Shown in pieces: positions 5,830 to 50,529 of a stretch of DNA of 64,000 bases. The stretch covers positions 1 through 64,000 of the forward strand of contig ONJC01000006.1 in assembly GCA_900318035.1 (NCBI GenBank). The letters run 5' to 3'. Each line of letters opens with the position of its first letter. Within the stretch, counting starts at the first letter, position 1. Made by a program: the position numbers and the translations under genes. Source of the DNA: an uncultured Methanobrevibacter sp. (lineage in GTDB: Archaea > Methanobacteriota > Methanobacteria > Methanobacteriales > Methanobacteriaceae). Under the pieces are notes generated by a model. It was not told where the DNA came from. It was given only the letters and a program-made list of their open reading frames with translations, and searched no databases.

Positions 5830-6543
5830 ATGCTTCTATTAATAAGTCCTATAAATCGTGAAGAAGCTCTTGAATCTATTGAAGGCGGAGCAGATATTGT
5901 TGATGTGAAAAATCCTAAAGAAGGTTCTTTGGGTGCTAATTTCCCATGGGTCATAAAGGAAATCAGGGAATTGACTCCTGAAGACAAACTTGTCAGTGCC
6001 ACTTTGGGGGATGTGCCTTACAAACCGGGTACAGTTTCACTTGCTGCAATGGGCGCACACGTTTCAGGGGCAGATTATATTAAAGTTGGATTATATGGAA
6101 CAAAAGACCATGATGAAGCGGTTGAAGTCATGGAAAACGTTGTAAAAACTGTTAAAGATGTAAGTGAAGATACAATTATTGTAGCAGCAGGATATGCGGA
6201 TGCTCACCGTGTAGGTGCAGTAGGCCCAATGGAAATTCCAAAGGTAGCTAAAGATGCAGGATGCGACCTTGCAATGTTGGATACTGCTGTTAAAGACGGT
6301 CATACATTATTTGATTATTTAGATATTGATCAATTAAAGGAATTTGTAGAGGAAGCTCACAGCTATGGTTTATTAACTGCACTTGCAGGATCCGTTAAAA
6401 AAGACCAGTTAAAACCATTGCACGATATCGGTTGTGATGTTGTAGGTATTAGGGGAGCAGCATGTGTAGGCGGTGACAGAAACACAGGTAAAATACACCA
6501 TACTGCAGTAGCTGAGCTAAAAGAATTATTGGATTCATTCTAA
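5830..6543 (+). CDS. mfnB: (5-formylfuran-3-yl)methyl phosphate synthase
   Basis: Cytosolic TIM-barrel enzyme of methanofuran biosynthesis; it condenses two glyceraldehyde-3-phosphate molecules to 4-(hydroxymethyl)-2-furaldehyde phosphate. The 237-residue length matches the DUF556/MJ1099 family. The two catalytic lysines known for the family are present: K27 in [12 protein letters not shown] and K155 in [13 protein letters not shown] lies 6 nt before the ATG. The gene is 13 nt upstream of guaB on the same strand and probably shares its transcript. Assignment is firm. Confidence 0.96.
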
Positions 6544-6556
6544 TCAGGTGTAAATT

Positions 6557-8044
6557 ATGTCATATTCAAAAAAAGTTCAAGAAGCAAGAATGTCTTATAC
6601 TTTTGATGATTTTCTATTAACTCCAAATGCAAGTTATGTGGAACCAAAAGATATTGACACTACTATTGAATTAGGTAAAGGAATTAAATTAAACATTCCT
6701 GTTTTAAGTGCTGCTATGGACACTGTAACAGAAGCAGATCTCGCAATTGCCATGGCACAACAGGGTGGTATTGGAGTTATTCACAGAAATCTATCAATGG
6801 AAAGACAGGTTGAAGAAGTTAAAAAAGTTAAAAATGCTGAAGATTTAACCATCCGTGATGTTATAACCATTTCTCCGGATTCTACCGTTAATGAAGCAGA
6901 AACATTAATGCATAATGAACTCATCAGCGGTTTGCCTGTAGTTGATGATGACTCTGAAGTCATGGGTATCATATCCAAAAGGGATATCAGGCCGGTTTTG
7001 AAATCAGAACCTGCAACACCTATTAAGGATATAATGACCTCTGATGTTGTCACTGTTGAAGAGGGAGTTTCTGCTGAAGAGGCATTGAATGTCGCTTATG
7101 ACAACAAAGTCGAAAGGCTTCCTGTTGTTCGTAACGGTAAACTTGTAGGAATTATCACTATCAAAGATATATTGAACAGGTCTCAATATCCTAATGCCGC
7201 ACGTGATGACGATGGAAACTTTTTGGTTGCTGCAGCATGCGGTCCGTTTGATTTGGACAGGGCAATGGCACTTGACCAGGCCGGTGCGGACATCATTTCC
7301 ATTGACTGTGCTCATGCACACAACATGAATGTTGTCAAATTCACAGAAACCATTAAGGATAACATTGATGCTGAATTATGTGTTGGTAACATTGCAACTG
7401 CTGAAGCTGCAGAAGACTTGATATCCATGGGTGTGGATGCACTTAAAGTAGGTATCGGTCCGGGTTCAATGTGTACCACTCGTATTGTAGCAGGTGTAGG
7501 AGTTCCTCAGTTAACCGCAATTTCAGATGTTGCTGATGCAGCTGCAGATTCAGGCATTCCGGTCATTGCCGATGGAGGTATCAGATACTCCGGTGATGTT
7601 GCAAAAGCTATTGGTGCTGGTGCAGATGCCGTAATGCTTGGTAACTTACTTGCAGCATCCTATGAAGCTCCAGGTGATATTGTTGTAATGAACGGTAAGC
7701 AATACAAAAAATACCGTGGAATGGGATCCATGGGTGCAATGACCAGCGAATATGATGGTGGAGCAGACAGATACTTCCAAGGTCAAAAAAGTAAAATGAA
7801 CCATACTAAATATGTTCCTGAAGGAATTGAAGGTGCTGTACCATACAGAGGAACCATTGCGGAAATTTTATTCCAATTGGTTGGTGGTTTAAAATCCTCT
7901 ATGGGTTATTGCGGTGCAAAGGATATTGCTGCAATGAAGGAAAAAGCCAGATTTGTTAGAATTACAAGCAGTGGTATTAAGGAATCCCACCCTCACGACT
8001 TGTTGATTACTAATGAAAGTCCTAATTATCCAACTCTTGAATAG
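6557..8044 (+). CDS. guaB: Inosine-5'-monophosphate dehydrogenase
   Basis: Oxidises IMP to XMP with NAD+, the first committed step of GMP synthesis. 495 residues, normal for the family. The TIM barrel (N-terminal [11 protein letters not shown]; active-site loop GPGSMCTTR with nucleophile Cys306; [16 protein letters not shown] phosphate-binding region; flap [11 protein letters not shown]) is interrupted by a pair of CBS domains at about 95-205. AGGTG precedes the ATG. It follows mfnB closely, an unrelated pathway, so the pairing is probably one of shared expression. Confidence 0.97.
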
Positions 8045-13648: not shown

Positions 13649-16600
13649 ATGTTAAACAAATCAAGCAATATAATCGAAAAGGAATTTAAGAATTTACGTA
13701 GGGAACTATTGGATTTAACTTTAAGAAATCAACTTCTTAACTTCAAATCAAGAGCCAAAACCATTACAATAGTAAATCAGTCCCCTGTAAATCTTTTCCA
13801 AACACTTGTTTTACAGAACAGCAAAATGTATTTTGTTGCCAATAAGAAAGACAAAAAGGAAGACAAGTCTTCAGTTTGGGATCACATTCCGTTCGACTTT
13901 TCAAAGTTTTCTGAAGGAGACAGGAAACTGGCAACCGATTTGACCCCAAAGGAACTTCAGAAACGATTATATTACATTAACAACCAGGCAAAGACAATGC
14001 TTCAGGAGCAGGGTTATAACATTTTATACCTGGCTGTCGGATTTTTGGAATGGAAGGACAAATCCAAACCGAGACAGAAGAACAACGCTCCTCTTGTTTT
14101 GATTCCTGTTGCAATGGAAAGGAAAAAGGTTGGAGAATCATTTAACCTTGAATGGACCGGAGAGGATATTCAGACTAATATTTCACTTAAGGCCAAATTG
14201 CTGGAAGCGGGCTTAGAGCTCCCCGACTTTGAATTTAAAAGGTATGGTGAAGTAATTGACCATTACATCGCAAGCGTTCGCCGTGCAGTATCACGCATGG
14301 ACGGATGGGAAGTAAACACCAATGTGGCTTTAGGTTTCTTTAGTTTTACAAAATTCGTAATGTATAATGATTTAAACCCAGAAGCATGGGCAGATAATGT
14401 TGATTTGACTAAAAATGAATTGATTCAGGCTATTTTCAATCCAGCTAAAAACGATCAGGAAGCATTCAGGGAGGAGGACATAGACTCCCAACTTGAATAC
14501 AGGTCAATGTATCAGGTATTGGATGCAGATTCATCACAGATTGCCGCAATTCAGGATGTGAAGGCCGGCAGAAATCTGGTAGTGGAAGGACCACCAGGTA
14601 CCGGTAAATCACAGACTATTGTAAATTTAATAGCTGAACTTTTAGCCGAAGGAAAATCAGTTCTATTCGTATCAGAAAAAATGGCGGCATTGGATGTTGT
14701 AAAGGACAGGTTAACCGGAGTGGGTCTGGGCAAGTTTGTCCTTGAGTTGCATTCACATAAAACCAGACGTAAGAAATTCCTGAAAGATTTGCAGAAGGCA
14801 ACCAATGTCAGGGCTCAGGAGCCATTAAACATTGACCAGACAATCCGTAAACTGGAGACTTTGCGTCGCCAACTTGATGATTATTCTCAAATTATTCACA
14901 AACCTGTATTTGCTGTCAACTTGTCAGCATTCCAGTTATATGGTATGAAAGAGTCTGCTGATGACCATTTTGCACGCAAAGACACATTAATGCCTTTGGT
15001 CAGGTTTGAAAACCCAGAAGACGTTACTTTAAAAGATTTGGATGATATGAAAATCGCCCTGGAAAATCTTGCAGAACTCTATCAGACAATATCCAAGGAA
15101 AATCCGTGGAGCAAATGCGCTCCGAAAAGTCTGCTTCCCGGAGATTTGAGGGAAATTGAAATGCTTATCAACGATTCCCTTCACAGTCTGGACAATTTCC
15201 TTGTCGAACGTGGAAGGGTCTATGACATTTATGGAATTAAAAAACCCGATACTTTAAACGAATTCCAGAATTCACTTTCAGCCTTTGAAATAATCAAATC
15301 ACAGAATGCCGAATTGATTGACGGCAGCATTATCAAATCAGGGGCATGGAACAATAACAATGATGATGCGTTTTTATTAATCAGGGAGCTTGAAAGATAT
15401 CAGAAATATGCTCCTGCTCTGGATAAGTTTAATCAGAGCATCTATCAGGCAGACATTGACAGACTGATAGCACAGCTGTATCACATTTCAAACAAAAGGT
15501 TCCGCTTGTTTAATAATAATCAGCACATTGAGCTTGTTGAGATGTATTATGCTGTTCCTGTGTCCGGAAGTGCAGAGGATATTATTCGGGAGTTAAAGCA
15601 GGCAAAAGCAATCATAAAAATCAGAAGAAACCTTGAGGCCAATGATGCTTTAGGCCGAAAGTATTATGGAGGATACTGGCATCTGAATGCAGATCCAAAT
15701 GACTTGAAAGCCATTGCCCGTTGGATGCATGAGTTCACAGCACTGGTTCGTGACGGAACATTTTCCGAAAACACAATTGAGCTTATGAGCAGGGATTTAT
15801 ACGACATTAAACCTGAAAGGGACCTTGCGGAATATATTGATGCTGGTGAAGAGTTCGTAAGAGTACTGTCAAAATTAAAAGATAAGTTAAATCCAAGAAG
15901 CAAATTAATCTTCAAAAGAGAAACAGGTGATGTGCCGTTTGAAGCATGGAAAGAACAGTTGTATAATTGGAGAGGACAGCTATCAAGCCTTCATTTATGG
16001 TCACAATATCTGAATACCAAAAATGCCCTGAAAACTTCCAATGCAAAAATGTTTGTGGATTCAATAGAAAAAAGAAACATTAAAAAAGATGACATTGAAG
16101 CATTGGTTGAAGGAAACTTCGCAGACTCACTTTTAAACATATTATTTATAGAAAATCAGGAATTGGCCACATTCGTCGGAGAACTGCATGAAAATAGAAT
16201 TCGTGAGTTCAAGGACCTGGACAGGAAGATTCTAAATCTTAACAGAAAAAGAATTTTCCATAAGTTAAACAGCAACATTCCTAAAATCTTCGGCGGAACT
16301 GAAAATCCACAGGCCAAAATCCTTGCAGGAGAATTTACAAGAAAAAGCGGACACATGCCGGTTAGAAAACTTTTGGAAAAGGCCGGCGGAATGATAAAGC
16401 AAATCAAACCTTGTTTTATGATGTCTCCGTTATCCATTGCACAATACCTTGATCCGACAAATGAAGAACTTCAGTTTGATGTTGTTATTTTTGACGAGGC
16501 AAGTCAGGTAAAACCTGAAGATGCATTAGGTGCATTCATGAGGGGTAAGACTGCAGTCGTAATGGGAGATACACAGCAGCTGCCTCCAACTTCATTTTTC

Positions 16601-19600
16601 GACCAGATGTCAGACGCAGACAGTGACGAAGAGGAGGCCACATCACTGGATATGGAAAGTATCCTTCACTTGTGTAAATTGTCCTTCCCTGTAAAAATGC
16701 TGAAATGGCACTACAGATCCCGCCATGAATCACTGATTACAGTATCAAACAGGGAATTTTATGATGACGATTTACTGGTTTATCCTTCCCCATCACACAA
16801 CGATCCTGAACTGGGATTGAAATTCCATTACAACCCGAATACCCAATATCTCAGGGGAGCATCATCCGCAAACCCTCTTGAAGCGGAGGATGTTGTTGAG
16901 GAAATCTTCAACCACTTTGAAAAATATGGAGACACTAAAAGTTTGGGTGTCGGAACATTTTCAGTTGCACAAAAGAACGCAATTCTGGAAGCTCTTGAAG
17001 TAAAACGTAAAGAAAGACCTGAATTTGAACCGCTGTTCTCAGACAATAAGGAAGAACGTTTCTTTGTCAAAAACCTTGAAACAATCCAGGGGGATGAAAG
17101 GGATGTCATTCTAATCAGTGTGGGTTATGGATATGACCAGGATGGCAAGATGTCTCTGAACTTTGGTCCTCTGAATCAGGACGGTGGGGAAAGACGTTTG
17201 AATGTATTGATTACACGTGCAAGGGAGAAATGTGTGGTATTTTCAAACTTTAAAGCTTATGACATGAAATTAACTGCAAACCCTCCTTATGGTGTAAAAT
17301 CCTTGAAGGAATTTTTGGAATATGCAGAAAACTTAACCCTTGGAACTAACAGTCCTGATGCACACACAAAAGAACCGTTTGAAGATGCGATAGCAAGTTT
17401 CCTGGAAGAAAACGGTTATACAGTAGACAGACAGATTGGATGTGCAGGATTCAGGGTTGATTTAGCAATCGTGGATGATGAAAATCCGGGCAAATACATT
17501 TTGGGAATCACAACCGACGGAAAAATGTATTCCTCAAGTAAAGTGGCCCGTGATAGGGACAGGCTTCGTGAACAGGTACTGACAGGGTTAGGCTGGAAAC
17601 TGTATCATTTATGGTCAACTGACTGGTATAGAAACAGGGATTTGGGACGTAAAAAACTCTTGGAAAATGTTGAAAAATCCATTAAAAAATCCCGTGAAGA
17701 GGAAAGGCGAAGATCTGAAGAAGAGAAAAAGTTAGCTGAAAAAAGAAGATTGGAAGCTGAGAAGAAAGCAGAGGAACTACGTTTGGCACGTCAAAAAGAG
17801 GAAGAGGAGCGCGCCAAAAAAGAAGCTGAAGAAAATGAAATAAATCAGGAGGATATAGGTCCAAATGATTTTGTAGAAGTTGAAAAAGTTGACGACGGAG
17901 ATATTTTGGAAAAACCGATAGACGTATCCGAAATCAATCCTGAGGAATTCTTTGCAGATGATGATATAAAGACAGCTTCCGATAAAAATACTCAAGATAA
18001 ATCCATTAATGAAGATAATGATTCTCAAAAAGAAACTCCTTCTGAATTTGTTGCTGTAGAAACTCCTGATGAAGATATAAAAATTGAGGAAACTCCTTCT
18101 GAATTTGTTGCTGTAGAAACTCCTGATGAAGATATAAAAATTGAGGAAACTCCTTCTGAATTTGTTGTTGATGAAACTGATGATGAAGATATAAAAATTG
18201 AGGATACTCCTTCTGAATTTGTTGTTGATGAAACTCCTGATGAAGAGGGTTCATTGGATGATGGTTCCGATGTTGTTGTTGAGGAAGTTTCTGATGAGGG
18301 TCCTGTTGGAGAATCTGTTGTTGAGGAAGTTTCTGAGGATAATGAAGTTTGGGAATCAAAAGAAGAACCGGTTAATCAAAATGATGATGCTGAAGTGTGG
18401 GAATCTGATGATGGCGTGGCCCCCGAAGATAATGCTGAAGTTTGGGAGGATGACGCCGATTATGCTGACACTGGTGACGAGTCAGAATCAAAATCAATTG
18501 CTCAAAAAGTCAATCAAAAGGTTAAATCATTCTTTAGACATGATGAATCAGATGATGAAAGCTCATCTAAAAGTTCATTTTTCTCAGCACTTAAATTTGA
18601 AAATGGTTTGGGTGAAAATACGGACATGAATGGGGAACTTGAAGACGATATAAAAGACTCTGTTAAAGATGATAAAATTGATCTGGGGTCTGATGACGAT
18701 TATATTTATGTTGATCACTCCAATGATGAGGTATCTGAAGATATTGAAGAACCTACAAAGCCTGACATTAACGATTATGTTTCCAAAGAAGAAAGAGAGT
18801 ATTATGTTGATGAAGAGCCTATTGATGATGAAATAACACCAGATGAATCCGTCAGTGAAAAAAACATTAAAAAACCTATTTTCAGTGATAGAATTAATAT
18901 TAAATCAGACAATGATTTCAAGGATGATTTTGATTCCGTTAATGTTAATGATGATGTTAATGTTGATTTTGATTCCGTTAATGTTGATGATGATGTTAAT
19001 GTTGATTTTGATTCCGTTAATGTTGATGATAATGTTGATGATGATGTTAATGTTGATTTAGGTTCTGTTAATGTTGATGATAATGTTGATGATGATGTTA
19101 ATGTTGATTTAGGTTCTGTTAATGTTAATGATGATGTTAATGTTGATTTAGGTTCTGTTAATGTTAATGATGATGTTAATGTTGATTTGGGTTCTGTTAA
19201 TGTTGATGATGATGTTAATGTTGATGAAAAAATCAATGATGATGATAAGGTCGATTTAGGTTCAGATGATGATTATATTTATGTTGACCACTCAGATGAT
19301 GAAGTAGCTGAAGAAAGCGAAATGTCTGATGACAATAATGAGTATGAAGATAAACCTCAAAATGAAATTAATGCTCAAAACAAATCAAGGAAATCTAGAT
19401 TCGTAAAATCCATAATATCTGAAGTTGTCAATGCTGAATCCAGACTCCAGCCGGAAGAAATAGAAACTGTCCGTGGAGAAATTGTAGAAGAGGATGAAAC
19501 TCCATTGTATAAACCTGCTCCTAAAGATGAATATGTTGTAGAAGCGGAAATAGTAAATGGTGGAAGCAGCTCTTCTGAAGATACCTTTGAAAAACCAATT

Positions 19601-21064
19601 CCTGGAGAGGATTATTTTGAAGAGGATGAGGAATTGAATATTTTCAACGATGACCTTCCTGACTTAAGTCAGGAGGAATATGATGAAATTAACAATGAAG
19701 CAACCAGAATAATTGATGAGGCCATGAGTGAATTTATGAATGATGTATTCGATAAGGAGGATTCACCTACAAAAGTTGATGGTTCATTCGAACATTCCAT
19801 TGAGAATAAATTTGTCGATGAGGAAATAGATGAGGATGTTGAGGTTGAAAGTAAATTTGCTCACCAGAAAAGTGATGGATATAATGACATTAACGTTCAA
19901 GAAAAATCTAATGAAGAGACAATAATTAAAGGAAATGAAACGAATATTCAAGATAATGAGGATGTTAATGTTATTGAGGATATTGTTGAGGATACATCTA
20001 CATCAGTCGATGATGTAATATACTTTAAGGGAGCAACAGATGTGACAAATCCTTTGAGAAAGAATAATGTCTATTACAATGAACATAATAACAGGTCATT
20101 AAAAGATTCCATTAGGGGAATTAAAAAGGATATGCAGTACATTAACAAATCCCTTAATGAAATTGAAAATCCAACTCAGATAGATTACGTTTCAGTTGTT
20201 GACAGAACCGAAGAGTATGACCCGAACGATTATCTGTCAAGACCGAGCGATGACGATTCCGATAAGATAATTCAAATGGAAAACGACGCCACAGTTAAAG
20301 TAAGAGAAATAATTGGCGAATCCTTTGATAGGGAAGTTCCGAATGATGATGATGTTATAGTGACTGTCAATGAACAATACAGGCGTGAAGAACTTAAGGA
20401 CCAGGCTCTTGAGAACATCATTCAAAATGCAGATGACGATTACAAACAGATTGAAAAGGAAAGGCATAAAAGCTCAAATAAGTTAAAGGCATTTGATGAT
20501 AAAAAACTTCCGGGCAAAAAGAAACCGGAAGATGAGATAATCGACTATGTTCAGGCTGATGATATAGGATTGACTCCACAGAATGACTTATATGCAATGC
20601 CTATTCCTAAAGTTGCAAAATCCATTAAAGCTATTGTTGATGTTGAAGGACCGATTCATGTCAAAGAGGTTACAGCAAGAGTTAAGGACTGCTGCAATAT
20701 TAAAAGGGCTGGGTCTCACCTGAAAAAAACTGTTAATTCAGCAATTGGTGAAGCCGAAAAATCTGGAGATATCATAAAAATTGGTGATTTCCTGTATGAT
20801 GCTTCAAACAATAATGTGGTTATCAGGAAGAGGAACAAACCTAACATTGAACTGATATCTGATGAGGAAATAGCGAAAAGCATTGAACTTGTGCTTATTC
20901 ACAATCGAAATGTCTCAACCAAACAGATTGCAAAGGAAGCTTCACGTAACTTCGGATTCAAATCCACTTCCAAAAAGACTGCTACCAGAATAAACAGCGT
21001 CTTGGATTTGATGATTGCTAACAACCGTGTAAAGATTGTCGATGATTATGTTGAACTAAATTAG
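13649..21064 (+). CDS. Giant DUF4011-type superfamily 1 helicase with PD-(D/E)xK nuclease and acidic repeat insert
   Basis: 2471 residues, predicted cytosolic. In order: an N-terminal DUF4011-like region (about 5-260), SF1 helicase core with Walker A GPPGTGKS (K320), DEAS Walker B (D949, E950) and GDTQQLPPT (from G973), helicase C-terminal lobe to about 1220, and an MTES_1575-type endonuclease domain (about 1240-1350) with E1245, D1271 and D1290-G-K1292 as likely catalytic residues. A highly charged coiled segment (about 1350-1400), an acidic Asp/Glu-rich insert with tandem repeats (about 1400-2290) and a C-terminal DUF3320-like winged-helix pair (about 2300-2471) follow. Core families of this type act on DNA and some occur in defence loci. 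The acidic insert is unusually long. uvrC follows after 9 nt, with its own AGGAGG. Confidence 0.88.
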   Translation: MLNKSSNIIEKEFKNLRRELLDLTLRNQLLNFKSRAKTITIVNQSPVNLFQTLVLQNSKMYFVANKKDKKEDKSSVWDHIPFDFSKFSEGDRKLATDLTPKELQKRLYYINNQAKTMLQEQGYNILYLAVGFLEWKDKSKPRQKNNAPLVLIPVAMERKKVGESFNLEWTGEDIQTNISLKAKLLEAGLELPDFEFKRYGEVIDHYIASVRRAVSRMDGWEVNTNVALGFFSFTKFVMYNDLNPEAWADNVDLTKNELIQAIFNPAKNDQEAFREEDIDSQLEYRSMYQVLDADSSQIAAIQDVKAGRNLVVEGPPGTGKSQTIVNLIAELLAEGKSVLFVSEKMAALDVVKDRLTGVGLGKFVLELHSHKTRRKKFLKDLQKATNVRAQEPLNIDQTIRKLETLRRQLDDYSQIIHKPVFAVNLSAFQLYGMKESADDHFARKDTLMPLVRFENPEDVTLKDLDDMKIALENLAELYQTISKENPWSKCAPKSLLPGDLREIEMLINDSLHSLDNFLVERGRVYDIYGIKKPDTLNEFQNSLSAFEIIKSQNAELIDGSIIKSGAWNNNNDDAFLLIRELERYQKYAPALDKFNQSIYQADIDRLIAQLYHISNKRFRLFNNNQHIELVEMYYAVPVSGSAEDIIRELKQAKAIIKIRRNLEANDALGRKYYGGYWHLNADPNDLKAIARWMHEFTALVRDGTFSENTIELMSRDLYDIKPERDLAEYIDAGEEFVRVLSKLKDKLNPRSKLIFKRETGDVPFEAWKEQLYNWRGQLSSLHLWSQYLNTKNALKTSNAKMFVDSIEKRNIKKDDIEALVEGNFADSLLNILFIENQELATFVGELHENRIREFKDLDRKILNLNRKRIFHKLNSNIPKIFGGTENPQAKILAGEFTRKSGHMPVRKLLEKAGGMIKQIKPCFMMSPLSIAQYLDPTNEELQFDVVIFDEASQVKPEDALGAFMRGKTAVVMGDTQQLPPTSFFDQMSDADSDEEEATSLDMESILHLCKLSFPVKMLKWHYRSRHESLITVSNREFYDDDLLVYPSPSHNDPELGLKFHYNPNTQYLRGASSANPLEAEDVVEEIFNHFEKYGDTKSLGVGTFSVAQKNAILEALEVKRKERPEFEPLFSDNKEERFFVKNLETIQGDERDVILISVGYGYDQDGKMSLNFGPLNQDGGERRLNVLITRAREKCVVFSNFKAYDMKLTANPPYGVKSLKEFLEYAENLTLGTNSPDAHTKEPFEDAIASFLEENGYTVDRQIGCAGFRVDLAIVDDENPGKYILGITTDGKMYSSSKVARDRDRLREQVLTGLGWKLYHLWSTDWYRNRDLGRKKLLENVEKSIKKSREEERRRSEEEKKLAEKRRLEAEKKAEELRLARQKEEEERAKKEAEENEINQEDIGPNDFVEVEKVDDGDILEKPIDVSEINPEEFFADDDIKTASDKNTQDKSINEDNDSQKETPSEFVAVETPDEDIKIEETPSEFVAVETPDEDIKIEETPSEFVVDETDDEDIKIEDTPSEFVVDETPDEEGSLDDGSDVVVEEVSDEGPVGESVVEEVSEDNEVWESKEEPVNQNDDAEVWESDDGVAPEDNAEVWEDDADYADTGDESESKSIAQKVNQKVKSFFRHDESDDESSSKSSFFSALKFENGLGENTDMNGELEDDIKDSVKDDKIDLGSDDDYIYVDHSNDEVSEDIEEPTKPDINDYVSKEEREYYVDEEPIDDEITPDESVSEKNIKKPIFSDRINIKSDNDFKDDFDSVNVNDDVNVDFDSVNVDDDVNVDFDSVNVDDNVDDDVNVDLGSVNVDDNVDDDVNVDLGSVNVNDDVNVDLGSVNVNDDVNVDLGSVNVDDDVNVDEKINDDDKVDLGSDDDYIYVDHSDDEVAEESEMSDDNNEYEDKPQNEINAQNKSRKSRFVKSIISEVVNAESRLQPEEIETVRGEIVEEDETPLYKPAPKDEYVVEAEIVNGGSSSSEDTFEKPIPGEDYFEEDEELNIFNDDLPDLSQEEYDEINNEATRIIDEAMSEFMNDVFDKEDSPTKVDGSFEHSIENKFVDEEIDEDVEVESKFAHQKSDGYNDINVQEKSNEETIIKGNETNIQDNEDVNVIEDIVEDTSTSVDDVIYFKGATDVTNPLRKNNVYYNEHNNRSLKDSIRGIKKDMQYINKSLNEIENPTQIDYVSVVDRTEEYDPNDYLSRPSDDDSDKIIQMENDATVKVREIIGESFDREVPNDDDVIVTVNEQYRREELKDQALENIIQNADDDYKQIEKERHKSSNKLKAFDDKKLPGKKKPEDEIIDYVQADDIGLTPQNDLYAMPIPKVAKSIKAIVDVEGPIHVKEVTARVKDCCNIKRAGSHLKKTVNSAIGEAEKSGDIIKIGDFLYDASNNNVVIRKRNKPNIELISDEEIAKSIELVLIHNRNVSTKQIAKEASRNFGFKSTSKKTATRINSVLDLMIANNRVKIVDDYVELN
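18032..18259 (+). repeat. Tandem 57-bp repeats inside the helicase gene
   Basis: Four consecutive units start at 18032, 18089, 18146 and 18203. Each encodes 19 residues of the type ETPSEFVAVETPDEDIKIE. The first two units are nearly identical in DNA. The unit length is a multiple of three, so gain or loss keeps the frame. Confidence 0.95.
18930..19230 (+). repeat. Tandem 39/51-bp repeats inside the helicase gene
   Basis: Seven units of 13 or 17 residues, consensus (D/G)SVNV(N/D)DDVNVD(F/L). Two units carry an extra DDNV. The DNA is a near-monotonous GTTAATGTTGATGATGATG pattern, prone to slippage in steps of 12 or 39 bp without frameshift. Confidence 0.95.
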
Positions 21065-21073
21065 GAGGCATTA

Positions 21074-22825
21074 ATGTCAACTAAAGTCAAATCTCCTGAT
21101 AACTTGCCGAATAAGCCAGGCGTTTATATTATGCGTGATGCATCGGATACCATAATTTACATAGGAAAGGCCAAAAACCTTATCAAAAGGGTAAAATCTT
21201 ATTTTCGAGAAAAGCTAGACAGGCCGAAAACTCAAATATTAATGAGTCACTTTGACAGTTTGGAATATATTGTAACTAATTCTGAAAAAGAGGCTCTAAT
21301 CCTCGAGGCCACATTAATTAAGAAATATCGTCCAAGATATAATGTCCAGTTAAAGGATGATAAAAGATATCCTTATGTTAAGATAACCGACGAGAAGTTT
21401 CCACGTTTGCTGATTACAAGAAACGTTACTAAAAACGGCATTTATTATGGTCCTTTTACAGATGTAGGTTCCGTCAAGCAAACAGTTAAGTTTTTAAAGT
21501 CTTTATTCAAAATCAGGACATGCCGCAATATGAACGGGCCATGTCTCAATTCTCAAATTGATCTTTGTTATGCTCCATGCAATGATGGGATTACTGAAAA
21601 GGAATATTCTGAAATTATAAATAAAATAGATCTGTTTTTCCAGGGCAAATATTCCACAATTGTTAAAAATCTAAAAAGGGAAATGATGGAGGCCGCTGAA
21701 AATGAGGAATATGAAAAGGCTGCCGTTATAAGGGACCAGATTGCATCCATTGAGGAAATCATGGAAAAACAGTTTGTGGATCTGGTTGATGATGATTTGG
21801 ACCAGGACGTAATAGCCATTTCCCAGGGCGATGATGAAGTTGTGGTCATTATAATGCCAATCCGAAACGGTAAAATAGTCGGAAGGGATGACTTTTTGAT
21901 GAGTGCATCCCAATATGATTCTCCATCAGAAATCATGTTTGCTTTCATTCAGCAGTATTATGGATATAACAGACATGTTCCAAAACAGATTCTTCTTGAT
22001 GAAGACATCGGTGAAAAACAGCTGCTGGAAGAATGGCTAAGCGATTTGAGGGGCAATAAGGTCAGCATCAAAGTTCCTCAAAAGGGTGTCAAGTTACGTC
22101 TTGTCAAGATGGCCCGCAAAAATGCCGACATTATCAAGCATCAAAAGAAAAAGATGGAATCCGCATTGATTGAACTTAAAAAATACCTGAAGCTTGAAAG
22201 GATTCCCCATGTCATTGAAGGTTATGACATAAGTAACATTTCAGGCAAGTTTGCCGTGGGTTCAAAAGTATCGTTCAAGGACGGAAAGCCCAACAAAAAA
22301 ATGTATAAACATTTCAAAATGGAAACTCCCGGACCGAACGATTTTGCTATGATGGAGGAGTTATTGACTCGAAGATTAAAAATGGTGGACAGGGATCCTG
22401 AACCGGACCTTATAGTAATCGATGGGGGCAAGGGACAGTTAGGCATGGCATGCGGAGTATTGGATAAATTGAATCTCACACATATTCCAATCATTGGTCT
22501 TGCAAAGGAATTTGAAGAGATATTTATTCCAAATTCGTCTCGTCCAATTATAATTCCTAAAAATAATCAGGCTCTGCATTTGCTTCAGCAAGTTCGTGAT
22601 GAATCTCATCGTTTTGCAATAACGTATCATAGAAAACTCCGCAGTAAGAATATTTCTGCCTCTTCACTTGATGATATTGCTGGAATTGGTAAAAAACGAA
22701 AGATTAATCTTTTAAAGGAATTTGAAACAATTGATAACATTAAAAATGCATCTGTTGAGGAATTAGCTAAAATAGAGGGCATGAATCTAAAAACGGCTGA
22801 AAATGTTTATAATTATTATCACTAA
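21074..22825 (+). CDS. uvrC: Excinuclease ABC subunit C
   Basis: 583-residue dual-incision nuclease of nucleotide excision repair. GIY-YIG domain at about 11-90 (PGVYIMRDASDTIIYIGKAK), UVR/UvrB-binding motif at about 200-235, RNase H-like nuclease domain with aspartates near 385 (GYDISN) and 450 (VIDGGKGQ), and a C-terminal helix-hairpin-helix pair (about 545-583). AGGAGG lies 6 nt upstream. Bacterial-type Uvr genes in methanogens are known horizontal acquisitions. The immediate upstream gene is the giant helicase-nuclease, suggesting a shared DNA-processing operon. Confidence 0.97.
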   Translation: MSTKVKSPDNLPNKPGVYIMRDASDTIIYIGKAKNLIKRVKSYFREKLDRPKTQILMSHFDSLEYIVTNSEKEALILEATLIKKYRPRYNVQLKDDKRYPYVKITDEKFPRLLITRNVTKNGIYYGPFTDVGSVKQTVKFLKSLFKIRTCRNMNGPCLNSQIDLCYAPCNDGITEKEYSEIINKIDLFFQGKYSTIVKNLKREMMEAAENEEYEKAAVIRDQIASIEEIMEKQFVDLVDDDLDQDVIAISQGDDEVVVIIMPIRNGKIVGRDDFLMSASQYDSPSEIMFAFIQQYYGYNRHVPKQILLDEDIGEKQLLEEWLSDLRGNKVSIKVPQKGVKLRLVKMARKNADIIKHQKKKMESALIELKKYLKLERIPHVIEGYDISNISGKFAVGSKVSFKDGKPNKKMYKHFKMETPGPNDFAMMEELLTRRLKMVDRDPEPDLIVIDGGKGQLGMACGVLDKLNLTHIPIIGLAKEFEEIFIPNSSRPIIIPKNNQALHLLQQVRDESHRFAITYHRKLRSKNISASSLDDIAGIGKKRKINLLKEFETIDNIKNASVEELAKIEGMNLKTAENVYNYYH

Positions 22826-44876: not shown

Positions 44877-45162
44877 AATTCTTATCTTTTTTTTAATTTT
44901 GTCATGAAACTAATTTTCATTTTTGAGATTTCTTTTACACACTTCATTTAATGTTTGACCAATGTAAAATCAGGAATTTCTGATTTGAATATTGTAAAAT
45001 AATCTTTGTATTTTGATGGATTCAAACAGAAAACGTTTCTACCAATATTATTCGAATCAATAGGAATTGTTTTTATCTATAAGAACAAATTAACAATCAA
45101 GTAGAAAAGTTAATAAATAATATGTTTGAATATATAATATTAACTGATAATTGGTGTTAATA
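44877..45162 (+). promoter_or_regulatory. Intergenic region with promoter of the large secreted protein
   Basis: Mostly AT-rich with no gene. GAATATATAATATT (about 45128-45141) is a TATA candidate about 30 nt before the TTG start, and GGTG (45153-45156) is the ribosome-binding site. Confidence 0.45.
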
Positions 45163-48100
45163 TTGAAAATTTATAGATTGATGATAATCAGTTCATTATT
45201 GATTATCCTACTCGGCGGCGTAAGTGCTGCAGACAACACACCTCATGATGCAATCATGAATATTTCATCCGGCAATCCATTTGATGATTCATTCAATGGG
45301 GAGGATGTTAATGAAAGTGTGCAGGAATATGATGCCAAACACGATAATGAAAACCCTCCTTTTGCTGAAGATATTGAAAATCAATCTGTTAATAGTTCAA
45401 ATAACTCTTTTTCAAAAATAAAAGTGCCTGCAAAGGATTTTCCAGGACCAAATCCTAATGAAAAAAGTTTATATGATAACCAATACTATTTATTCCGAGG
45501 CGATTGCTGGGTAATCAACAACAATTTCGAATCAACAGCCGCAGTTACCAGCCAAAGTTTCACTGATTTAACTGTAACAGGTACTTTCAGAACTCAAAGC
45601 GACATGGTGGGATTGTACTGGTATTCAAAAGATCCGATTCAGCATCCATACATCAGTTACGGCAGCCGCAGTGATTATTCCAATGTGGTGCTTGAATTCG
45701 ATTATCAGATGTCAGGATGCACTGATTTTTCAAAAAGCATTATAAGCATTGCAATAGAGACCAACAACGGTGAAACATATTATCTTACAATGAACAAATT
45801 CATTAAAAAAAATCATGTAAAAATTGATTTCAATAAGTTGGCCTTACTTCCGGGCAATTCCTATTTTGACAAGAACGGTCGATTAGTAACCGTTAAAAAA
45901 CAAACAAAATTGGATGTGACCAATCTTAAATCAATCATGTTTGTATTGGTGCCTGTTAACTTTGTCGACCATCCAAATTATAAAATTATGAAAAATGCGG
46001 ATTTCACCTGCAGGATATCCAATATTAATGTTGTCAACGGTGCAATCCGTACTGAACAGTCTGCATTGGAGCCTCATCAATACCGCCTTTGCGAAGACTA
46101 TGATGACATATTCAACATGAATCCTTTAAGGATATCTAACGAAATGAGAAAATTGGGATATGTCGGTTGGGTTGACCTCTATATTGGAGCTTCACACTAT
46201 TATGAAAAGTATGGGACTGTCGGTGATGTGATTGCCGGTAGCGGGTTTACAAATAGCCGTACTGAAAAAATGGTTTTGAATAAAAATGTGCCATTGAATA
46301 AAGCATTTAAAACCTGGCTCGATTGCTATTCACGCCAATTGAAAAAGAATAATGTGGAAAATCTTATTATCAGCGTTTCTATGGAAAATCTGCAATCACC
46401 GCACAGTTGGAGGCAAATGGATTGCAACGGAAATTTTGCAGTCACCGATTGGAATCCTTCAACATTCATTTATAGTCCATGCAATGATGAGGTTGTCCAG
46501 TATATGCAAAGAGTATCTGGAGCCTGCCTGGATATTGTCGTTGCCAATGGTTTTAAACCTATACTGCAGATGGGTGAAATTTGGTGGTGGTGGAATGAAC
46601 AGAAATTGCCTAATCAGTCACCATGCTTCTATGATGATTCAACCAAAGCTAAATATCTTGCAGAACATGGTACTGCCATGCCGGAATATGCCAATGTCTG
46701 GACCGCAGATTATGATAATGCAACTATAAATTGGCTGAATCAGCAACTGGTAAAATACAGTGATGCCCTACGCAGCGTCGTTAAAAGCGACAAATATGAT
46801 GAAGGATTATACATAGCACTATTCTTCCTGCCAAGCATTATAGGCAATGATAGAGTTCCGCCAATGATTACCGATGTCAATTATCTGCCGGATGCATATT
46901 CTCCATTTAAACTTGATATTCTCCAGATTGAGGATTATGATTGGGTAATCTTTGAAAGCATACATCATAGGGAAGCTTTTGCAATTGGTTATGATTTAGG
47001 CTTCAATGAATCCAATCTGCATTATTTTGGAGGTTTTGTTTTATATCCTGAGGATGCGGCAAAATATTGGCCATTGATAGAAAAAGCATTGGAGGATGCT
47101 ATAGAGCACAAATTCAAGGAGGTTTATATCTGGTCGGGCACACAGGTTAGAAGGGACAGCAAAATTCTTGGATATGATGAATATGCAATACTGGAAAACC
47201 TATTGAGAACCAACACGCCGGGCATTGTTTCTCCAAAAATAACTGCTCCGGAATATGTGTGCGCTGGTGAAATCTTCTCAATTAATATTCGCACAAATGC
47301 ATGGGTTAATGGTGCTTTTAAAGTATATGAATATAATAATGGCAAGAAGGGAAAACTTCTGGCTTCAAATAAAATAACTAACGGACATTCAGCAGTTTCA
47401 CTGTCAAGCGATAGTATAGGTTTAAATAGATTTTATTTGGAATTCGACTATGTTAAAGGAGAATATCATTTAATTCAAGAGATTTATATAGTTGGAAACT
47501 CACCAAATGTCAATGTCATTGTTACCGGTGAAATTGAAAGCGGATCTGTAGCAAATATCACATTTAATGCTCCTGAAAGTCCGAATGCTGTCATAAATAT
47601 TACTGTTGATGGAATAGTTCATAAATCCTATTTGGTTGACCATGGAAAGTTCAGGGCATCAATTTTAAGATTATCAAATGGATATCATAATGTTTTAATA
47701 AAATACGAAGGCGGAAAATATGTCGGCGGCAAATTTATCGGAGATGCTTACTATAAAACATTCACAGTTAAAGTCGCAGCCAAATCAATCATTGAAACCA
47801 GCAATGTAACTTCAGAGTATAATTCTGCTGTAAATTTGGCTGTAAATTTAAAAGACAGCAAAGGCAATGCTTTGAATGACAAAATCATTAAAATATCTTT
47901 AAATGGCAAAAACTATACTTTTACAACCGATAAAAATGGGCATGCTTCATTGCAGATAAGCCTATTGCCTGGAGAATACATTGCAGAACTATTTTATGCA
48001 GGGGATGATGTTTATTTATCTTCATTTGCCACATCTAAGATTGTTGTAAAAAAGATTGCTACAGGATTGGCTGCTAATGACATTAATTTGATTTATGGGG

Positions 48101-50529
48101 ATTCTGCTAATTTAGTTGTAAGTTTAAAAGACGGCAAAAATAATGTAATGGAAGGAAAGGACATTATAATTACATTAAATGGGATAAAATATACATTAAC
48201 TACCGATAAACAGGGTAAAGTCTCATTGCCAATAGGCATATTGCCTGGAAAATACACAGCAAAAATATTGTTTGAGGAAGATGACGCATATCTTTCATCA
48301 TCCGTCAATGCCAATGTTGTTGTAGACAAGAGTGCAACCATTTTAACAGTCAATGAGGTCACAAACAATTTAATCATTACTTTAAAGGATGCAAAAAATA
48401 AAGCTTTAAAAGGAAAAGACATTTCAATAAACTTAAACGGCAAAAATCATACAATCATTACAGACAATAACGGACGGGCCACCTTGCCAATAGACCTGCT
48501 TCCGGGAGAATATGTCGCAAAAATATCATTTAAAGAGGATAATGCCTATCTGTCCTCATCTGCAACAATCTCAGTCATCATAAATAAGATTGCTACATCT
48601 TTGAGTTCAAATAACCTTAATTTCACATATGGAAACCCAAATAATCTATTCATTACATTAAAAGACATTAAAAATAATGCTTTGAAAGGAAAAGACATTA
48701 CCGTTAACTTAAACGGTGTAACTCATACTGTTGTTACAGACAATAACGGACATGCCTCACTGCCTATTGATCTGCTTCCTGGAAAATACACTGCAAAAAT
48801 ACAATTCAGGGAAGACAACATTTATGTATCATCATTCGTCAATGTTGATGTTCTTGTAAACAAGGTTCCAACAAATCTGATTTCCAAAGATGTAAGTTTC
48901 ACATATGGTGATTCTGCAAATTTATTAGCTACACTAAAAGACACTAAAGGAAATGTTTTAAAAGGAAAAGTTATTGTCATTAATTTAAATGGTGCAAATC
49001 ATACGGTTGCTACTGCCGATAACGGTCAGGCTGCACTGCCAATAGATTTGATGTCTGGAAAATATGCTGCAAAAATCCAGTTCATTGAAGACAGTATTTA
49101 TATGTCTTCATCTGCTGATGCGAATATTGTAATAAACAAGGCCGCAACAGCTTTATTTGCTAATGACATTAATGTTACATATGGTGATTCTGCAAAGTTA
49201 TTAGTTACACTAAAAGACAGTAAAGGTGCTGTATTGAAAGGAAAAGCTATTATTGTTAACTTAAATGGCGTAAATCATAATGTCTCTACAGACAGTAATG
49301 GACAGGCCGTACTGTCAATTGATTTGCTGGCTGGAAAATATGCTGCAAAAATCCAGTTTAGTGAAGACAATGCATACCTGTCTTCATCCGCTGATGCGAA
49401 TATTGTAATAAACAAGGCTGCAACTGTTCTATTCGCTAAAGATATTACTGTTACATATGGTGATTCTGCAAAGTTGTTCGTTACACTAAAAGACAGTAAA
49501 GGTGCTGTATTGAAAGGAAGGGATATTTCTGTTAATTTAAATGGTGTAAATCATAATGTCGCTACAGACAGTAATGGTCAGGCTTCATTACCTATTGATA
49601 TGCTTCCTGGAAAATATGCTGCAAAAATCCAGTTTAGTGAAGACAATGCATACCTGTCTTCATCCGCTGCCGTTGATATTGTTATAAATAAAGTTGCAAC
49701 AACCTTAACTTCCGAAAACATCAATGCAGTATATGGGGATTCTGTCAATATGGTTGCTGCACTTAAAGACAGTAAAGGAAATGTCTTAAAAGGCAAATAC
49801 ATTGTCATTAATTTAAATGGCGTAAATCGTACAGTTGCCACAGACAATAACGGTCAGGTCGCACTGCCGATAGACCTGTTGCCCGGAATATATGTGGGAA
49901 AAATCCAGTTCAAGGAAGACAGCATATATGAGGCATCAGCCACCAGCAATAACATAAATGTAAGTAAAGCCACAACTGATTTAACATCCAATGACATCAA
50001 TATCGTATATGGTGATTCAACAAATCTAATCATTACTTTAAAAAGCACTCATGGCAATGTATTGGTTGGCAAATCAGTCACTGTCAAATTAAATAATAAG
50101 AATTACATTAAAAAAACAAATGCAAGCGGACAGGTACTGATTAACGTAAATCTGCCAGCCAACAAATACGATGCAAAAATCGGATTCGCTGGTGATGACA
50201 CATATTTATCTTCAACTCATACAGCTAAAGTGATAGTTAATAAGGCAACTTCAAAAATTACTGCATCATCCAAAACATTTAAAGCTAAATCCAAAGTTAA
50301 AAAAGTAACTGTAACACTTAAAAATAAAAATAAAAATAAAGCTATTAAAAATACGATTGTCAAATTAACTGTCAACAAAAAAACCTACAAAGTTAAAACT
50401 AATTCAAAGGGTATTGCTATTTTTAGTATTAAACTGGTTAAAAAAGGCAAATATGATGCGGTATTTAAATATGGAGGCAGTTCCAATTTCAAATCAGCAA
50501 CTAAAAATATTAGGATAACCATTAAATAA
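45163..50529 (+). CDS. Large secreted protein: enzyme-like head on an Ig-like repeat stalk
   Basis: 1788 residues. I put the start at TTG 45163, giving MKIYRLMIISSLLIILLGGVSA, a textbook signal peptide, with GGTG 6 nt upstream. Residues about 90-330 are beta-rich and about 330-690 look like a TIM-barrel glycoside-hydrolase-like domain (QMGEIWWWW, DWVIFESIHHREAFAIGY, EVYIWSGTQVRRDS), faintly reminiscent of phage tail TIM-barrel modules. Two spacer domains lead to nine repeats of about 92 residues (about 875-1690; YGDSANLLVTLKDSKG... GKYAAKIQF.ED..YLSSS). A lysine-rich terminal module (1690-1788) may bind the cell wall. No membrane anchor is seen. Confidence 0.85.
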   Translation: MKIYRLMIISSLLIILLGGVSAADNTPHDAIMNISSGNPFDDSFNGEDVNESVQEYDAKHDNENPPFAEDIENQSVNSSNNSFSKIKVPAKDFPGPNPNEKSLYDNQYYLFRGDCWVINNNFESTAAVTSQSFTDLTVTGTFRTQSDMVGLYWYSKDPIQHPYISYGSRSDYSNVVLEFDYQMSGCTDFSKSIISIAIETNNGETYYLTMNKFIKKNHVKIDFNKLALLPGNSYFDKNGRLVTVKKQTKLDVTNLKSIMFVLVPVNFVDHPNYKIMKNADFTCRISNINVVNGAIRTEQSALEPHQYRLCEDYDDIFNMNPLRISNEMRKLGYVGWVDLYIGASHYYEKYGTVGDVIAGSGFTNSRTEKMVLNKNVPLNKAFKTWLDCYSRQLKKNNVENLIISVSMENLQSPHSWRQMDCNGNFAVTDWNPSTFIYSPCNDEVVQYMQRVSGACLDIVVANGFKPILQMGEIWWWWNEQKLPNQSPCFYDDSTKAKYLAEHGTAMPEYANVWTADYDNATINWLNQQLVKYSDALRSVVKSDKYDEGLYIALFFLPSIIGNDRVPPMITDVNYLPDAYSPFKLDILQIEDYDWVIFESIHHREAFAIGYDLGFNESNLHYFGGFVLYPEDAAKYWPLIEKALEDAIEHKFKEVYIWSGTQVRRDSKILGYDEYAILENLLRTNTPGIVSPKITAPEYVCAGEIFSINIRTNAWVNGAFKVYEYNNGKKGKLLASNKITNGHSAVSLSSDSIGLNRFYLEFDYVKGEYHLIQEIYIVGNSPNVNVIVTGEIESGSVANITFNAPESPNAVINITVDGIVHKSYLVDHGKFRASILRLSNGYHNVLIKYEGGKYVGGKFIGDAYYKTFTVKVAAKSIIETSNVTSEYNSAVNLAVNLKDSKGNALNDKIIKISLNGKNYTFTTDKNGHASLQISLLPGEYIAELFYAGDDVYLSSFATSKIVVKKIATGLAANDINLIYGDSANLVVSLKDGKNNVMEGKDIIITLNGIKYTLTTDKQGKVSLPIGILPGKYTAKILFEEDDAYLSSSVNANVVVDKSATILTVNEVTNNLIITLKDAKNKALKGKDISINLNGKNHTIITDNNGRATLPIDLLPGEYVAKISFKEDNAYLSSSATISVIINKIATSLSSNNLNFTYGNPNNLFITLKDIKNNALKGKDITVNLNGVTHTVVTDNNGHASLPIDLLPGKYTAKIQFREDNIYVSSFVNVDVLVNKVPTNLISKDVSFTYGDSANLLATLKDTKGNVLKGKVIVINLNGANHTVATADNGQAALPIDLMSGKYAAKIQFIEDSIYMSSSADANIVINKAATALFANDINVTYGDSAKLLVTLKDSKGAVLKGKAIIVNLNGVNHNVSTDSNGQAVLSIDLLAGKYAAKIQFSEDNAYLSSSADANIVINKAATVLFAKDITVTYGDSAKLFVTLKDSKGAVLKGRDISVNLNGVNHNVATDSNGQASLPIDMLPGKYAAKIQFSEDNAYLSSSAAVDIVINKVATTLTSENINAVYGDSVNMVAALKDSKGNVLKGKYIVINLNGVNRTVATDNNGQVALPIDLLPGIYVGKIQFKEDSIYEASATSNNINVSKATTDLTSNDINIVYGDSTNLIITLKSTHGNVLVGKSVTVKLNNKNYIKKTNASGQVLINVNLPANKYDAKIGFAGDDTYLSSTHTAKVIVNKATSKITASSKTFKAKSKVKKVTVTLKNKNKNKAIKNTIVKLTVNKKTYKVKTNSKGIAIFSIKLVKKGKYDAVFKYGGSSNFKSATKNIRITIK
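47800..50240 (+). repeat. Nine tandem Ig-like repeats, about 276 bp each
   Basis: Units of about 92 residues end in IVINK or similar. Repeats 6 and 7 are the most alike: 49331-49393 and 49607-49669 are identical over 63 bp at a 276-bp offset, indicating recent duplication or gene conversion. Outer repeats are more diverged. Confidence 0.9.

Follow-up and report, generated by a model that had tools for sequence, protein, structure and literature searches.

A resident DUF4011-family helicase with a predicted inactive nuclease domain and a long acidic linker, encoded beside uvrC in Methanobrevibacter

Locus, domain organisation and family placement

The window, a 64,000-nucleotide stretch of a contig from an uncultured Methanobrevibacter sp. 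of the order Methanobacteriales (ONJC01000006.1, assembly GCA_900318035.1), contains a giant ORF that opens with ATG, runs as a single unbroken frame and is closely followed by uvrC (Table 1). Its neighbours encode housekeeping functions, namely 4HFCP synthase, IMPDH, prefoldin, HisA and geranylgeranyl reductase, and no recognised defence system was detected among the window neighbours with PADLOC and Pfam, by which a defence island was ruled out. A frameshift or assembly artefact was also ruled out, the same open frame being present in 35 complete copies from the same genus, including single-contig genomes; broken copies run into the end of a contig or, in L194, the single case looked at closely, into a 100-N gap within the linker. 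In the uncultured Methanobrevibacter RUG11674 (L130) the core of the protein is 99% identical to that of the window. One single-contig genome record (L033, G041:C1:10) begins at the orthologous gene, possibly at an arbitrary or origin-near linearisation point. Elsewhere in the window, a 276-bp tandem repeat of 4.6 copies (48654-49929) lies in a 1792-aa ORF (45151-50529) with a signal-like start, probably encoding an adhesin-like surface protein.

Table 1. Positions in the window of the giant gene, its domains and motifs, and the adjoining uvrC
Feature	Position	Strand	Size or evidence
Type-A (resident) DUF4011 helicase-pseudonuclease ORF (putative)	13649..21064	+	2471 aa
DUF4011 domain (res 19-184)	13703..14200	+	Pfam E 5.7e-46
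Helicase motif I GPPGTGKSQTI (res 314-324)	14588..14620	+	invariant, 81/81 aligned sequences
Helicase motif II VVIFDEASQ (res 945-953)	16481..16507	+	D and E invariant
MTES_1575 Vsr-type REase domain (res 1244-1340), predicted to be inactive	17378..17668	+	Pfam E 1.9e-30, fold match, dN/dS 0.034 (rough)
Codon of Thr1288 (Glu in 49/52 relatives outside the order; ECDG -> TTDG)	17510..17512	+	alignment
Codon of Ser1295 (His in 42/52 relatives outside the order; YH -> YS)	17531..17533	+	alignment
K/E/R-rich charged probable helix (res 1341-1400)	17669..17848	+	sequence, conservation; helix runs on from nuclease model
Hypervariable acidic linker (res 1401-2110)	17849..19978	+	tandem repeats at 18032-18246 and 18925-19226
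Conserved linker motif b5 (res 2115-2205: NPLxKN..YY..YINKSLxEIENPT..VIDRT)	19991..20263	+	conservation
Conserved linker block b6 (res 2240-2300), predicted to be helical	20366..20548	+	conservation, AlphaFold2
C-terminal winged-helix region (res 2305-2471; DUF3320 res 2313-2359)	20561..21061	+	Pfam, predicted structure
uvrC (583 aa), probable operon partner	21074..22825	+	starts 9 nt past giant ORF

Pfam analysis of the 2471-aa protein identified, in the order known from PDC-S37 and ProA, DUF4011, an SF1 helicase split into AAA_11 (res 294-357) and AAA_12 (res 1008-1200), the MTES_1575 domain and DUF3320 (E 2e-10), and no Pfam family was found in res 1340-2313. Motifs I and II (FDEASQ) and the later motifs III-VI are intact, and the sampled helicase motif columns are invariant across the alignment, except for an R/K swap in motif VI. 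The helicase core resembles in sequence those of the SF1 helicases Sen1, SMUBP-2, Upf1 and Dna2, its relatives of solved structure; unlike them, the window protein carries DUF4011 and a long extra segment separating its RecA halves, and its accessory domains are others. The first-pass annotation, which had described a DUF4011-type SF1 helicase with a PD-(D/E)xK domain and terminal winged helices, was thus borne out in its architecture by Pfam and by fold matching, as it was in the roughly 900 Asp/Glu-rich residues that it placed between the nuclease domain and the winged helices; the altered active site of the nuclease had escaped it.

The best family models are PDC-S37 (1656 bits; res 8-1398), ProA (NCBIfam NF058533; 1334 bits) and Hhe (NF042953; 925 bits), the matches to PDC-S37 and ProA together lying within res 8-1408. 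The ProA score falls below the curated cut-off of 1500 bits and the Hhe score (924.7 bits, in three separate stretches) below that of 2000, while the PADLOC model PDC-S37 has no curated cut-off; PADLOC and NCBIfam label these relatives anti-phage. DUF4011, the SF1 helicase and the MTES_1575 nuclease are shared with PDC-S37 and with the 'anti-phage protein ProA', and the DUF4011-family helicase and nuclease segments with the anti-phage helicase Hhe. Compared with PDC-S37 and ProA, the window protein has lost the nuclease active site, has gained an acidic linker of 350-1080 residues and is encoded by a core rather than a mobile gene. Full-text literature on PDC-S37, ProA and Hhe yielded nothing directly of use. 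The window protein may accordingly be called a resident archaeal ('type A') form of the DUF4011/PDC-S37/ProA-like helicase family, a placement that belongs to the evenly weighted reading developed below.

The nuclease domain and the acidic linker

The Vsr/PD-(D/E)xK fold of the third domain was recognised both by the PF18741 match and by Foldseek on the predicted structure, with 3r3p (I-Bth0305I; prob 1.00, E 3e-3) and 1cw0 (Vsr; prob 0.99, E 4e-2) as matches; the model also resembles the NGO0050 endonuclease-like protein 3hrl. Sequence searches of the nuclease and C-terminal regions against solved structures returned nothing significant, a weak RAP-domain match (E 0.12) being a lead. An architecture of helicase, Vsr REase and wHTH has been described for the MTES_1575 REase (PF18741; PMC3710099), which shares sequence and predicted fold with the window domain; the latter differs in the absence of the active-site Glu and His, and no HEPN or transglutaminase fusion was seen.

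In relatives outside the order the nuclease motif reads D...E-x-D-G-x-x-Y-H, 49 of the 52 having the Glu and 42 the His. Neither residue occurs in any of the 37 type-A copies from the genus of the window (0/37 each), where Glu is replaced by Thr (36) or Asn (1) and His by Ser (20) or Ala (17). Among the 31 other resident copies Glu is kept in 13, giving way to Leu, Thr, Gln, Ile or Met in the rest, and His is kept in three; counted over the order, six substitutes for Glu occur (T, N, L, I, M, Q). Mapped on the whole tree, the presence or absence of Glu needs nine changes, eight of them forced by well-supported branches. Both residues are kept in 0/53 long-linker copies versus 37/52 others; since the long linker arose only once, this association amounts to one phylogenetic contrast and not to an independent test of correlation. 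Moreover, Methanothermobacter-like copies have lost both residues with a linker of only about 30 aa, so that the two traits are not tied and the insert as the cause of nuclease loss is unsupported. The Methanomassiliicoccales relatives L152 and L154 have independently lost Glu and His (CLDG, YQ) and have a short tail.

Vsr-type endonuclease chemistry depends on a conserved Asp and His, and Vsr itself is not known to have a Glu at the equivalent position; a key residue is lost under either an ExK-type or a Vsr-type reading of the site. The nuclease domain of the type-A protein is probably catalytically dead, and the 'nuclease' of the first-pass annotation does not stand as an activity. The domain nevertheless does not resemble one in decay, which would not give helicase-level constraint: its dN/dS of 0.034 versus 0.035 for the helicase (24 close same-genus copies; rough values, dS being near saturation), together with the near-invariant D1271, D1290, Y1294 and RDRDR cluster, suggests that the fold is retained for binding.

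The acidic linker evolves in another manner, with a dN/dS of 0.43 versus 0.035 for the helicase (same 24 copies, equally rough). In the window, res 1421-2290 (about 870 aa) consist of 32% D+E with a net charge of -200, and nothing else in the window comes close to the linker in acidity (lowest net charge of any 150 aa -58, that of the next stretch -23). It contains in-frame tandem repeats of 39, 51, 57 and 90 bp, and the motif DLGSDDDYIYVDHS occurs twice in its hypervariable part (res 1401-2110). An acidic insert of varying length was found in every complete same-genus orthologue, including those of single-contig genomes. Outside the order the nuclease-to-winged-helix linker has a median of 15 residues and a maximum of 227 (41 sequences). 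Within it, with genera coded g1 (that of the window) to g19 (Methanothermobacter-like), the linker measures about 17-39 residues in g19 and g14, 120-160 residues in g15 and g16, where it is already acidic (net about -36), and 353-1081 residues with a net charge of -36 to -200 in the clade of the window's genus, lengths from metagenome assemblies being uncertain and shortened copies usually reflecting contig ends. The tree of the helicase sequence places a single origin of the long linker inside Methanobacteriaceae; in the more than 50 copies descended from it the linker has always stayed long and acidic, its length varying freely beyond a few hundred residues. Where the linker repeats lie (window 17849-19978), draft assemblies tend to end or to contain N gaps, as with the 100 N at 6498-6597 of the reverse strand in L194.

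Two islands of conservation interrupt this variability. The block b5, of about 80 residues, has a dN/dS of 0.089, and the wHTH region one of 0.097 (both rough, from the 24 close same-genus copies). It is present in eight linker-bearing genera (g1, g3, g5, g6, g7, g8, g9 and g13) and was not found in relatives without the long linker; that it is a module common to other proteins was ruled out, as it gave one match per genome, always in the giant ORF. The block b6 is likewise shared in part. AlphaFold2 predicted a helix in b5 at moderate confidence and the winged helices at high confidence, and fold matches of the winged-helix region to other winged-helix proteins, e.g. SelB, were weak.

Distribution and gene neighbourhood

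Type A is present in 36/37 good genomes of the genus, as is uvrC, whereas HsdR_N, scored for comparison, occurs in 26/37. The one genome that lacks type A, assembly G098, is also the one that lacks uvrC; its weak match to DUF4011 comes from another protein. A DUF4011 search across the phylum added nothing to that of the order. With this distribution and housekeeping neighbours, type A has neither a defence-island nor a mobile context. A second DUF4011 paralogue of the same order, type B, has the same domain order and about 40% identity; it differs from type A in its intact Glu (13/13), its mostly intact His (10/13), its short linker and its patchy occurrence (L037, L041, L047 and L087 in the same genus; L065-L070, L083, L085 and L086, Methanosphaera included). 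Four same-genus genomes carry both types. In L041 type B sits just after HsdS/HsdR, and none of the type-B loci has uvrC, mrf or DinG/XPD-like neighbours.

In all 35 loci of the genus with a complete 3' end, uvrC follows the type-A gene on the same strand at a distance of 7-18 nt (9 nt in the window); g3 has a gap of 5 nt, and three g6 loci have one of 0.6-1.8 kb. Such conserved same-strand adjacency is the pattern expected of a UvrC-linked repair module. In g15, g16, g19 and g11 the type-A gene instead lies directly downstream of an mrfA-mrfB pair, encoding an MZB helicase and an RNase_H_2 exonuclease, on the same strand and about 0.5-1.4 kb away; the pair was seen upstream of the resident gene in L071, L072, L073, L076-L081 and L063. 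For g7 and two of the g6 loci, mrfB is located 2.7-3.6 kb upstream, and these g6 loci have uvrC on their downstream side as well; in g14 a DinG/XPD-like helicase gene is found 0.2 kb upstream. No mrf adjacency was detected in g8, g9 and g13, and outside the order no uvrC- or mrf-type repair neighbours were found in the flanks covered by the collection scan, except for two weak MrfA-like matches in Streptomyces. In Bacillus subtilis, the repair of mitomycin C damage by MrfAB does not depend on UvrABC (PMC11194089).

Of the damage-or-defence module with uvrC proposed by the first-pass annotation, it is the damage part that finds support, the uvrC link being non-random and mrfB or mrfAB lying nearby in other genera; defence is opposed by the housekeeping neighbours and the core distribution. 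The repair link has more behind it than the first-pass annotation could have known; the helicase-nuclease label and the defence and nuclease-sequestering ideas are not well supported by these comparisons.

A putative repair factor and the competing explanations

The type-A protein may be a resident helicase-pseudonuclease of DNA repair that carries a charged tether and derives from a helicase-nuclease, a reading that we consider about evenly poised between right and wrong. In such a protein the helicase would translocate along nucleic acid that is damaged or branched, the inactive nuclease domain would serve as a Vsr-fold clamp gripping DNA or partners without cutting, and cutting would be left to separate nucleases, UvrC in the genus of the window and MrfB in others. 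The winged helices would hold nucleic acid or a partner. D/E-rich tails, e.g. that of HMGB1, weaken non-productive DNA binding by charge competition (PMC10250230), and the long acidic tether might act likewise while giving the winged helices reach; b5 could be where a repair partner, or another segment of the same protein, docks. Like the HMGB1-type autoinhibited proteins with D/E repeats (PMC10250230), the window protein combines an acidic, presumably disordered stretch with nucleic-acid-binding domains (-200 over 870 aa), but its linker is about 20-30 times longer and internal instead of a tail. Against the repair reading, PADLOC and NCBIfam call the relatives anti-phage; the adjacency to uvrC, seen in three related genera, may be one inherited event; the gaps of the mrf pairs are such that these need not form an operon with the type-A gene, and g8, g9 and g13 lack such pairs; outside the order neither link was seen, bar the two weak Streptomyces matches; and a Thr/Ser active site could still act in an unusual way.

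The competing explanations differ in which part of the protein they emphasise. The linker may mainly reflect neutral growth of low-complexity repeats, tolerated as soluble and acidic and without a mechanistic role, as its in-frame tandem repeats, its high dN/dS and its range of 353-1081 aa would allow; between the window copy and L103, whose cores are 98.9% identical without indels, linker lengths lie 59 residues apart and 83 linker residues are unmatched. We regard this as rather improbable, given that more than 50 copies descended from one origin have all stayed long and acidic, and given the conserved islands inside the linker, b5 above all. An antiviral sensor, in which the resident helicase would recognise foreign DNA and block it without cutting, is unlikely: it would agree with the best family models, which are anti-phage or candidate defence systems (PDC-S37, ProA and Hhe), and with the YprA-type helicases of Druantia I/II, in which inactivated Vsr domains occur (PMC12458937), yet the protein scores below the curated cut-offs of ProA and Hhe, its gene is not patchy but part of the core and inherited vertically, and it stands in a housekeeping neighbourhood, with repair genes adjoining it in several genera.

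Less probable still is an active nuclease using D1271, D1290 and a Glu of the helix, in a site that is Vsr-like or has migrated, which would make the protein a helicase-nuclease with an odd tether. The near-invariance of D1271, D1290, Y1294 and the RDRDR cluster, the helicase-like constraint on the domain and the apparent absence of the Glu from Vsr itself would fit; against it, the position of the Vsr general-base His is also lost (Ser/Ala), and the Glu has been exchanged for six different residues within the order. The proposal of the first-pass annotation, in which the nuclease of an active enzyme is restrained by an acidic insert acting as a DNA mimic, in a defence or damage module with UvrC, is the most improbable of these and we give it very little credence. 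The insert does directly follow the nuclease domain and uvrC does adjoin the gene, but the active-site residues are gone in all same-genus copies, so that there is no evident nuclease to sequester and sequestration is unlikely, and the relatives with an intact active site carry no such insert. That annotation had itself counted against the proposal insert-less orthologues of the same function and mutated catalytic residues in most copies: short-linker orthologues do exist among the Methanothermobacter-like copies (about 30 aa), which answers to the insert-less part, and most resident copies have substitutions at the catalytic residues.

What appears new here, as far as sequence can tell, is a variant of the known DUF4011 family with a dead-looking nuclease and a presumably flexible acidic tether of about 700-900 residues. 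A fuller history of the repair factor, in which an anti-phage-type helicase-nuclease was domesticated in Methanobacteriales, repeatedly lost its nuclease site, left an intact paralogue in defence and is now paired with UvrC or MrfB via an acidic tether with a new docking motif, as an undescribed archaeal repair factor, is tentative, and we lean against it in that complete form. The residues and segments singled out are T1288, S1295, D1271 and the b5 motif, and the exaptation from defence to repair is directly testable, some genomes holding both a disarmed resident copy and an intact paralogue. So long an acidic linker in an archaeal helicase would either be one that bears a function or serve as a clear example of neutrality. 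Automated tools match the protein to the defence families PDC-S37, ProA and Hhe; the methanogen version, its nuclease domain retained but apparently disarmed, has the look of a resident repair protein, which suggests that in gut and rumen methanogens a defence-type enzyme may have been turned into a housekeeping DNA-repair factor.
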